DNA of 64,000 bases from Deltaproteobacteria bacterium (lineage in GTDB: Bacteria > Bdellovibrionota_B > Oligoflexia > Oligoflexales > Bog-1112): assembly GCA_947466225.1 (NCBI GenBank), contig CANIBL010000006.1, positions 1-64,000 on the forward strand, read 5' to 3'. The notes beneath the pieces were generated by a model that saw only the letters and a list, made by a program, of their open reading frames with translations, was not told the origin of the DNA and did not search any database. Position 1 is the first letter of the stretch. Each line of letters begins with the position of its first letter. Shown here in pieces: positions 17,095 to 53,569 of the stretch. The translations under genes were made by a program, and so were the position numbers.

Positions 17095-17095
17095 G

Positions 17096-17275
17096 ATCGA
17101 AGGAGATGCCCGTACGGCCCAAGCGGCCTGGGCATGACGGGAAAGGCCCGCGCCTCGCTCTATGCAGTAGCTTCTTCAAGCAGCGTTCCGTCATCCCCAG
17201 CGACCGAAGGGCGCGTCGGGGATCCCCCTCGATCGAAGGAGATGCCCATACGGCCGAGACGGCCTGGGCATGACG
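17096..17275. repeat. REP-like palindromic repeats
   Basis: Two copies of a palindromic unit (GAAGGAGATGCCCNTACGGC followed by GGCCTGGGCATGAC) lie at about 17098-17139 and 17232-17273. They are separated by a 'gtcatccccagcgacc...ggggatcccc' unit. Both unit types recur at 17.9-18.1 kb, and the second recurs at 53.5 kb. No gene is credible between 17095 and 17381. Confidence 0.75.
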
Positions 17276-17943: not shown

Positions 17944-18135
17944 GAGATGCCCATACGGCCTTCGGCCTGGGCATGACGGGAAGGGGGCCACGCTCTCTAC
18001 GCAAGAGCACGGCCCTCGCATCTTCGAACAGCACCCCATCATCCCCAGCGACCGTAGGAGCACCCCGTCATCCCCAGCGACCGTAGGACCACCCCGTCAT
18101 CCCCAGGCCGCCTCGGCCGTCGGGGATCCCCCTCG
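17944..18135. repeat. REP-like palindrome and 29-bp tandem repeats
   Basis: A GATGCCCATACGGCC/GGCCTGGGCATGAC palindrome (17945-17976) is followed by about 2.6 head-to-tail copies of a 29-bp unit beginning CACCCCRTCATCCCCAGCGA (18032-18060, 18061-18089, then partial). The block ends in a GGGGATCCCC palindrome (about 18122). The tandem copies are contiguous with no spacers, so this is not a CRISPR array. Confidence 0.75.
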
Positions 18136-20312: not shown

Positions 20313-20374
20313 AGTAACTCCTTATTTTTTCACACTCACGTGAGGTGAATTTTTTTACTGGGGCACCAGCTTAC

Positions 20375-20881
20375 TGGGGCACCAGCTGCGCAGGTTCCCC
20401 AGACCCCTCCTTGCAAGCACTGGGAGAGTCGGATGGTGAGAGGGTATGAAAATAAGGCCAAGGCCGGCGCTACGATCGGATCCCCCCAACTCTCAAAATC
20501 GCAGATCAAGCTCACGTCATGGACACCAAGTTCTGTGGCTGCGATTTGTGACCCGTTGGGCCCCTCCGATCTGCTGCCCTTGACCTTATTTTCATACCCT
20601 CTCACCATCCGGTTCTTCCCTGCGCAGGGGGAGAAGCAACCAGAGCTTGGGAAAGAATCCGAGATAAGACACGGGCAGCCAGACAGAAGGGGCCCAACGG
20701 GTCACAAATCGCAACCAAGAGTGGAGGGGCCTTGACGAGAGCGCTGCCTGCGATTTTGAGAGTTGGGAAGATACTGTCTGAGCGCCGACCGTGTCTCCTC
20801 ATCGGATTCCTTTCTATGCTCTCGTTTCTCTCCCAAGTCTTGCAAGGAGGGGTCTGGGGAACCTGCGCAGCTGGTGCCCCA
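20375..20881. repeat. large composite palindromic element, copy A
   Basis: The 507-bp non-coding element starts with TGGGGCACCAGCTGCGCAGG and ends with its inverse; the terminal inverted repeat runs on through ACCCCTCCTTGCAAG. Inside are two arms. Arm 1 has a 33-bp stem (from GGATGGTGAGAGGG, one mismatch), then GATCGG/CCGATC, then TCAAAATCGCAG/CTGCGATTTGTGA around a loop. Arm 2 has an imperfect stem with a CAGACAG-type inner stem and a different loop. A CCCTGCGCAGGG palindrome sits between the arms. The first 16 bases of the left end are tandemly duplicated. It lies between divergent genes, next to their promoters. Confidence 0.85.
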
Positions 20882-24213: not shown

Positions 24214-24280
24214 GACACCTCCCTTTCCTATATTTTGCTATGTCTAGTCAAGTTAGTCAAGTCGAGGAAGGAAGGAAGGG

Positions 24281-24311
24281 TATGGGAAAACTCCGCAGGC
24301 GGTTTCCCATA
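24281..24311 (-). terminator. inverted repeat after rsfS, possible terminator
   Basis: TATGGGAAA and TTTCCCATA are separated by 13 GC-rich bases and lie 10 bp past the rsfS stop. On the minus strand there is no U-tract after the hairpin, only CCCTTCCTTCC, so it may be a weak or Rho-assisted terminator or an mRNA 3' stabiliser. Confidence 0.35.
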
Positions 24312-28198: not shown

Positions 28199-28700
28199 TT
28201 TCGGAACCAGCTGCGCAGTTTCCGAACCTCCTTGCTGAGGAACGGGAGAGAAACGAAAGCTTGGGGAAAAAGCTCATGAGGAGACACGGCCGGCGCACAG
28301 ACAGAATCTTCCCACCTCTCAAAATCGCAGATTGGACTTACTTCATGGACAGCAAATTCTGTGGCTGCGATTTGTGACCCGGCGGGCCCCTTCTGTCTGG
28401 CTGCCCGTGTCTTATCTAGGCTTTTTTCCCAAGCTCTCGTTTTATTCTCCTCTTTGCAGAGGAAAGATGCGGATAATAAGATAGTCGGAGATACGACCCA
28501 GGGCAGCAGATCGGAGGGGCCCAACGGGTCACAAATTGCAGCCAAGGGTGTAGGGACCTTGACGAAATTTTTGCCTGCAATTTTGAGAGGTGGGGGGATC
28601 CGATCGTCGCGCCGGCCTTGGTCGTATCTCCGACTATCTTATTATCCGCATCTTCACCTCCCTGGCAAGGAGGTTCGGAAACTGCGCAGCTGGTTCCGAA
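28199..28700. repeat. large composite palindromic element, copy B
   Basis: This 502-bp copy starts TTCGGAACCAGCTGCGCAGT and ends with the inverse; the terminal repeat includes GAACCTCCTTGC. Arm 1 carries CAGACAGAA/TTCTGTCTG and the first loop kind (TTCATGGACAGCAAATTCTG). Arm 2 carries GATCGG/CCGATC and the second loop kind. The arm 2 outer stem (GCGGATAATAAGATAGTCGG and complement) is long and nearly perfect but differs fully from the matching stems of copies A and C. The central TCCTCT/AGAGGA hairpin replaces the palindrome of copy A. It lies between lepB and the symporter gene, which share a strand. Confidence 0.85.
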
Positions 28701-32384: not shown

Positions 32385-32440
32385 GTGGTTCTCCCTATAT
32401 TGTTACGTCACATATACAGCGTGACAGTTTTGTTATTGGA

Positions 32441-32491
32441 GAACCATCTTATTGGGGAAACTGCGCAGCTGGTTCCCCAATAAGATGGTTC
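32441..32491. repeat. solo end-palindrome of the large repeat family
   Basis: The 51-bp palindrome has arms GAACCATCTTATTGGGG and complement around the core AAACTGCGCAGCTGGTT, the same core that bounds the three large elements. It may be a deletion remnant (like a solo LTR) or a minimal element. Outside it TTATTGG and GGTTCCCCA are partly repeated. It sits between the ends of two minus-strand genes. No U-tract follows on either strand, so a terminator role is doubtful. Confidence 0.75.
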
Positions 32492-32510
32492 CCCAGGGAA
32501 AAAACAAGTA

Positions 32511-37451: not shown

Positions 37452-37950
37452 TCGGAACCAGCTGCGCAGTTTCCAAACCTCCTTGCTAGGAGCTTGGAGA
37501 GTTGGGTAAGACAAAAAATCGGAGATAAGACCAAGGCCGGCGCGACGATCGGATCCTCCCACCTCTCAAAATCGCAGGCAGAGTTTTCGTCCAGGCCCCA
37601 CTATTCTTGCTTGTGATTTGTGACCCGTCGGGGCCCCCCGATCTGCTGCCCTTGGTCTTATCTCCGATTTTTTGTCTTACCCGCGTCTTCCCTGCAAAAA
37701 GGAGAAGAATACGAGAGCTTGGGAATAAATCCGAGCATGAGACGCGGGCAGCCAGACAGAAGGGGCCCAACGGGTCACAAATCGCAGCCACGAATTGGGT
37801 GTCCATGACGTGAGCTTGATCTGCGATTTTGAGAGGTGGGAAGATTCTGTCTGAGCGCCGACCGCGTCTCCTCCTAGGATTTTTTTCCAAACTTTCCTAT
37901 CTATCCATTTTCCGGCAAGGAGGTTTGGAAACTGCGCAGCTGGTTCCAAA
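37452..37950. repeat. large composite palindromic element, copy C
   Basis: The roughly 500-bp copy starts GGAACCAGCTGCGCAGTTTC and ends with the exact inverse; the terminal repeat is about 33 bp, through AAACCTCCTTGC. Arm 1 has a perfect 32-bp outer stem (from GGTAAGACAAAAAATCGG) with GATCGG/CCGATC and loop kind 2. Arm 2 has CAGACAG-type pairing and loop kind 1. Read from the other strand, its order equals copy B. No open frame in it has a start site or composition worth calling. It lies between pal and the exonuclease gene. Confidence 0.85.
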
Positions 37951-53472: not shown

Positions 53473-53477
53473 TTTCT

Positions 53478-53522
53478 AAGGAGATCCCCGACGCTCACTT
53501 CGTTCGCTGGGGATGACGGAAA
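53478..53522. repeat. REP-like unit
   Basis: GGAGATCCCCGACGCTCACT to GCTGGGGATGACGGAA is an imperfect palindrome of the same 'GGGGATCC.../GTCATCCCC' family as at 17.2 and 18.1 kb, in the opposite orientation. It sits just after the integrase remnant. Confidence 0.6.
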
Positions 53523-53569
53523 GCTGGCAGCTGACCTGTCTTCGAGTTCTAACAACAACATTCATAACA

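Follow-up and report, generated by a model that had tools for sequence, protein, structure and literature searches.

A hairpin unit with a mirror-image tail at the ends of a 500-bp two-armed intergenic repeat in the Oligoflexales

Intergenic copies of a ~500-bp element in an Oligoflexales genome end in short hairpin units in which three tracts vary in step, namely a purine tract (R), its complement (Y) and, 3 nt further on, a tail that mirrors Y. This terminal unit, with its three-strand (mirror) covariation, is the new part of the analysis. An initial annotation had read the element as structured DNA or RNA that might be mobilised in trans, an interpretation that is borne out in part but that overlooked the end unit, which also occurs solo, with the same covariation, in two other genera. 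We consider it probable that the family is a lineage-specific, non-coding and non-autonomous DNA repeat of the REP/BIME type that acts through DNA structure. More tentatively, evolution may be maintaining an intrastrand DNA triplex made up of R, Y and a mirror third strand at 3 nt, probably as the recognition structure of the enzyme that spreads the repeat, in which case the 500-bp element would be an elaborated form.

Plan and copies of the 500-bp element

The window (the whole 64,000-nucleotide stretch of DNA analysed) contains copies A (20376-20880), B (28202-28698) and C (37453-37948), each within a few bases of where the initial annotation had placed it. The plan described there is present in all three, with terminal palindromes containing TGCGCAG and two arms, each consisting of an outer stem, an inner stem (GATCGG or CAGACAG) and a TCAAAATCGCAG/CTGCGATTTGTGA stem beneath the loop. 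The canonical order is terminal unit, GATCGG-type arm, short centre, CAGACAG-type arm and inverted terminal unit, the CAGACAG-type arm being an inverted and diverged relative of the GATCGG-type arm. One arm of each type, in this fixed order, was found in every well-preserved full copy, and copy B is inverted relative to A and C. In the predicted fold, two inverted units cap a core of ~430 bp made of two long hairpin arms, giving a two-armed cruciform. Folding energies of copies A, B and C lie 17 to 20 s.d. below those of dinucleotide shuffles, and the terminal inverted repeat of copy A (20371-20428/20828-20885) is 93% complementary. The features in the window are:

20376..20414, plus strand: copy A, left terminal unit; R = GGGG, core CACCAGCTGCGCAGGTT, Y = CCCC, 3-nt linker AGA, mirror tail CCCC, TCCTTGC (sequence and unit scan)
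20422..20619, plus strand: copy A, GATCGG-type arm, long hairpin (fold; covariation helices 2-5)
20627..20837, plus strand: copy A, CAGACAG-type arm, a long hairpin with the opposite orientation to the first arm (fold; covariation helices 7-11)
20842..20880, minus strand: copy A, right terminal unit, inverted (sequence and unit scan)
24270..24308, minus strand: armless solo unit; R = GGGA, loop pair C-G, Y = TCCC, 3-nt linker ATA, mirror tail CCCT, decayed TCCTTCC (fold; unit scan)
28202..28235, plus strand: copy B, left terminal unit; R = GG, 3-nt linker GAA, tail CC, TCCTTGC (sequence and unit scan)
28243..28457, minus strand: copy B, CAGACAG-type arm (fold; orientation comparison)
28462..28654, minus strand: copy B, GATCGG-type arm (fold; orientation comparison)
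28665..28698, minus strand: copy B, right terminal unit (sequence and unit scan)
32431..32500, minus strand: solo hairpin core, R = GGGG, without tail, nested in an outer copy whose loop it forms (CTGGGGAACCATCTTATT/AATAAGATGGTTCTCC) (fold; unit scan)
37453..37486, plus strand: copy C, left terminal unit; R = GG, 3-nt linker AAA, tail CC, TCCTTGC (sequence and unit scan)
37495..37690, plus strand: copy C, GATCGG-type arm (fold)
37700..37905, plus strand: copy C, CAGACAG-type arm (fold)
37915..37948, minus strand: copy C, right terminal unit (sequence and unit scan)

Just outside copy A, its left end is partly duplicated at 20350-20375 (ACTGGGGCACCAGCTT), and similar partial ends border several other copies (loci L007, L009 and L037). 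A separate interspersed palindromic repeat (GTCATCCCCAGCGACC...GGGGATCCCC) occurs at 17095-17275, 18027-18123 and 53475-53526, and one copy of it sits inserted in a one-arm element at locus L117.

The window's genome (G000) is a MAG of an uncultured Oligoflexales-type bacterium (Bdellovibrionota), with 2.12 Mb in 70 contigs and a completeness of 92.8%. A search of this genome returned 107 matches, read as ~14 full and ~30 partial or contig-edge copies, so that copies are present outside the window. Several contigs begin or end within a copy, and the true copy number is therefore higher than that counted. All full copies with both flanks resolved are intergenic, lying 15-260 bp (mostly 15-110 bp) from the next open reading frame, and their neighbouring genes are arranged in tandem, convergently or divergently, with no preference. 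The description of the element as non-coding, intergenic, repeated and structured is thus supported, and a protein-coding reading was set aside because indels between copies do not preserve the frame. Shorter forms in the same genome include one-arm elements, small elements with 100-230 bp between units, and solo units. In the one-arm elements, deletion junctions fall in a 9-bp direct repeat (CTGCGATTT), for which simple repeat-mediated deletion suffices, and an origin by loop-to-loop deletion was therefore rejected.

The terminal unit and its mirror tail

Among 43 genomes of the order, the unit was found in 3, which belong to a single GTDB family. Besides G000 (~75 places), it is present among the relatives only in G003 (JACPKR01, a Deltaproteobacteria bacterium from groundwater; ~200-220 places) and G005 (JAGNWK01, an Oligoflexales bacterium; ~60 places), both of them uncultured bacteria, which represent two further genera. 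The arm module was not found in other GTDB genomes, a set in which the source genome itself and its closest neighbours may be hidden.

Units aligned from the three genera share the plan R - AACCA N CTGCG N' AGTTT - Y - 3 nt - tail - TCCTTGC, with a length of ~39-45 bp. R and Y form the stem of a hairpin whose loop, CTGCG, is closed by a covarying N-N' pair, seen as all four Watson-Crick combinations (G-C, C-G, A-T and T-A). R consists of purines, Y is its complement, and the tail is the parallel complement of R, i.e. the mirror image of Y, and of equal length, while the linker between Y and the tail is constant at 3 nt. The mirror is exact for R = GG, GGG, GGGG, GGGA, GGGGA, GGAGG (6 copies), GGGAGA, GAGGGA and GAGAGA. 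Among the asymmetric R types, the tail is an exact mirror in 5/5 and a direct repeat in 0/5, a base order with a chance of 1 in 90,000 given the composition; the alternative in which the tail directly repeats Y, and could replace it as pairing strand, fails on this comparison. Over all 37 different combinations, including those that have decayed, the parallel match was 0.656 versus 0.508 ± 0.025 when shuffled, with no excess of antiparallel matches. Shuffling within genomes gives a less extreme contrast (0.543 ± 0.026, the maximum of 2000 shuffles being 0.663 against the observed 0.656), and relatedness therefore matters to this score: copies within a genome are related, and the counts are not independent events.

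Neither copying nor Watson-Crick pairing can produce a mirror relation, which is instead what one would expect to see if a third strand lay along R in a predicted triplex. The building block would be the 39-45-bp hairpin unit with its mirror tail 3 nt on, able to lie along R in the pyrimidine motif on one strand and in the purine motif (G.G-C, A(T).A-T) on the other, and the structure may form in single-stranded (lagging-strand) or supercoiled DNA. The commonest pairing in G003 is GGAGG with CCACC (168 copies; CCTCC in 6), which on the complementary strand places GGTGG against GGAGG. In purine-motif triplexes, either T or A may face an A-T pair (PMC4666352). As CCACC against GGAGG breaks the pyrimidine motif, most G003 copies fit the purine motif (T.A-T) only. 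In many G000 units R is only GG, and a triplex of the resulting 2-3 triads would hardly be stable alone.

The unit resembles the TM_ECO/BoxC/PIT sequences of E. coli and its relatives (PMC4666352), which likewise combine an R:Y hairpin with a third strand exactly 3 nt away, are intergenic, occur in many copies and in inverted pairs of two sub-types, and carry T in the third strand opposite A. Judged by its sequence geometry, the third tract of the unit is similarly able to lie on the purine strand, with a 3-nt second loop. Holder et al. (2015, PMC4666352) found TM_ECO of E. coli, with its N3 second loop, to fold stably as a triplex in vitro. Of the 23 entries in their Table 1, 22 have a third strand as long as the duplex of three or four G-C pairs, these copies not being independent. 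However, the TM_ECO/BoxC sequence (CCCTCNCCC-N3-6-GGGNGAGGG-N3-GGGNGAGGG) is not matched by the unit consensus, whose third strand lies on the opposite side (topology of class I/III rather than class II). In addition, the R of the unit varies freely with its tail, the loop is fixed as CTGCG, the sequence is unrelated, the host belongs to the Oligoflexales, and the unit is also built into the 500-bp two-armed element and a MITE.

Counts of intrastrand triplex motifs exist for many bacterial genomes; in the work of Holder et al. (PMC4666352), their formation in vivo was not shown, and the only role suggested for them was a link with genomic instability. If the triplex reading holds, three covarying strands in a natural repeat family would constitute comparative evidence for an intrastrand triplex that is evolutionarily maintained. 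The triple-strand match may persist because an enzyme that spreads the repeat in trans recognises or tolerates the structure. As the third strand changes in step with the duplex, strand swaps can ask whether the mirror matters, and to which protein.

Pairing in the long arms

Covariation was counted on 12 full copies, in which 95% of cells were paired and 49 pairs had changed on both sides. The 136 two-sided cells compare with 45.6 ± 5.6 in shuffles (none of 500 reached 136) and with 14-29 when partners were slid, confirming the earlier proposal that pairing is kept while sequence changes. The accompanying statement that outer stems differ wholly between copies was correct as to divergence with retained pairing, but "wholly" was an overstatement: GATCGG-arm stems have a mean identity between copies of 76% (minimum 61%) and are 93% paired within a copy, while CAGACAG-arm stems have 87% identity and are 81% paired. 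The family shows that REP-like hairpins can be built up into far larger (predicted) cruciform elements.

In the outer helix of the GATCGG-type arm, nearly all changes are two-sided and one-sided G-T cells are few. Across the outer stems and termini, G-T (32) and A-C (41) mismatches are about equal in number, and the two arms lean opposite ways with no overall excess of G-U, so that G-U bias lends no support to an RNA reading. That changes in the GATCGG-type arm are two-sided and lack G·T intermediates points to upkeep at the DNA level, by selection and/or hairpin-templated correction, rather than to one structured RNA. Template switching within hairpins is known to create and keep hairpins (PMC8794818), and two-sided changes together with a balance of G·T and A·C are what DNA-level upkeep that includes such switching would give. 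Repeated copying of a hairpin had already been named in the initial annotation as the alternative to selection on structure, and it fits the scarcity of one-sided intermediates in this arm.

Carried to its limit, this argument would make the covariation a mutational by-product only, with template switching symmetrising long quasi-palindromes in an element that has no function. We regard that as rather unlikely: it explains the Watson-Crick pairing of the arms and the two-sided, largely intermediate-free changes of the GATCGG type, but not the mirror tail, since copying cannot yield a parallel complement, and the inner arm sequences are almost invariant across copies. On the preferred reading of a repeat that acts through DNA structure, arm pairing would be kept largely by hairpin-templated correction, with some selection.

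Mobility and breakage

In G003, the unit forms the right end of a MITE of 143-147 bp with terminal repeats that start with GTAA (GTAATGCGTAAGCCACTTGGGG). The other end is another hairpin of the same plan, preceded by a G-rich tract and TTT, and exact target duplications of 8-9 bp flank 9/25 copies, whereas 600 mismatched flank pairs gave no duplication of this length. This MITE is present in ~110 copies (119 forward and 102 reverse end matches; L123-L142, e.g. L136:13387-13533), and both of its internal hairpins are planned as third-strand tract, TTT and purine arm. The position of the unit in an element with target duplications points to a cut-and-paste transposase in that relative, and the GTAA end and 8-bp duplication are reminiscent of the IS66 family.

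The 500-bp element could itself be a MITE or foldback of a cut-and-paste (DDE) transposon, with ends that are simply terminal inverted repeats for an ordinary transposase encoded elsewhere and with hairpins that are incidental. It shares with MITEs its inverted ends and lack of coding capacity, and IS66 transposases are present in G005. We nevertheless consider this explanation unlikely, as the terminal repeat of the G003 MITE is unrelated to the ends of the G000 element and is not present in G000 or G005, no target duplications were evident around 23 G000 elements (3 matches versus 1.4 expected), neither an IS66 transposase nor an IS1 gene was found in G000 or G003, and a simple terminal repeat needs neither a mirror tail nor a covarying loop pair. 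IS1 and IS66 transposases were accordingly rejected as mobilisers of the G000 element. Solo units in G005 gave 29 six-mer flank matches versus 16 expected, a count confounded by truncated tail repeats.

Like REP, BIME and REPIN sequences, the unit is a short, intergenic, mismatched palindrome that occurs singly or in inverted pairs at high copy number. The element could be REPIN-like and be moved by a REP-associated tyrosine (HUH) transposase that works on hairpins in single-stranded DNA. This would fit the bulged palindromes and the lack of target duplication, and Y1 proteins are encoded in the relatives G003, G005 and G006. However, G006 lacks the unit despite its Y1 proteins, no GTAG-type tetranucleotide was seen at the foot of the hairpin, and no RAYT gene was detected in G000 (92.8% complete). 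The only Y1 transposase detected in that MAG is a 147-aa TnpA adjoining a TnpB-like reading frame in an IS605 arrangement (L056, G000:C16:38871-39236), with an end hairpin of its own that is unrelated to the unit and with neither a unit within 1.5 kb nor a unit motif in its surroundings. These findings make movement by such a transposase quite improbable. The long arms between units and the mirror tail also distinguish the family from REP/BIME/REPIN. The RAYT/IS200 link suggested in the initial annotation did not find support, and an IS200/IS605 derivative was rejected, its ends being unlike those of the resident IS605. A phage or plasmid satellite was also rejected, as searches of viral, phage and plasmid collections gave no similar sequence. 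That the element is a transcribed, structured RNA, either a small RNA or a cis-regulator, is highly improbable, for although copies A-C fold very stably as RNA and many copies lie close to genes, the element occurs in all gene arrangements and both orientations, its arms differ in the direction of their mismatch bias, and an Rfam scan of the window matched only a tRNA and no family for the element.

For the 500-bp form, neither a mobiliser nor an empty site was found, and we therefore infer its mobility from dispersal only; no unit pair at transposon distance was noticed among the places listed, in an assembly that is broken at repeats. As a non-autonomous DNA repeat, it would be kept and spread via its single-stranded or extruded form, with mobility provided in trans.

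Breakpoints of deletions and duplications lie at hairpin loops or in short direct repeats. Many units in G005 and G003 are followed, ~6 to 30 nt downstream, by a truncated repeat of their own 3' part, and truncated units in G003 break preferentially at the hairpin loop. The clustering of truncations at loops, along with partial units nested around others, suggests that unit hairpins form in the cell and that breakage or mis-copying occurs at their tips. Downstream of units there are tandem partial duplications, whose left breakpoints cluster in the loop between CTG and CGCAG (L136:6306-6440, L123:5655-5760 and L108:4587-4720). At L109:4660-4800 in G005, a GGGGG-type unit has apparently been inserted in the loop of an older GGGAGA-type unit, the two halves of which flank it.
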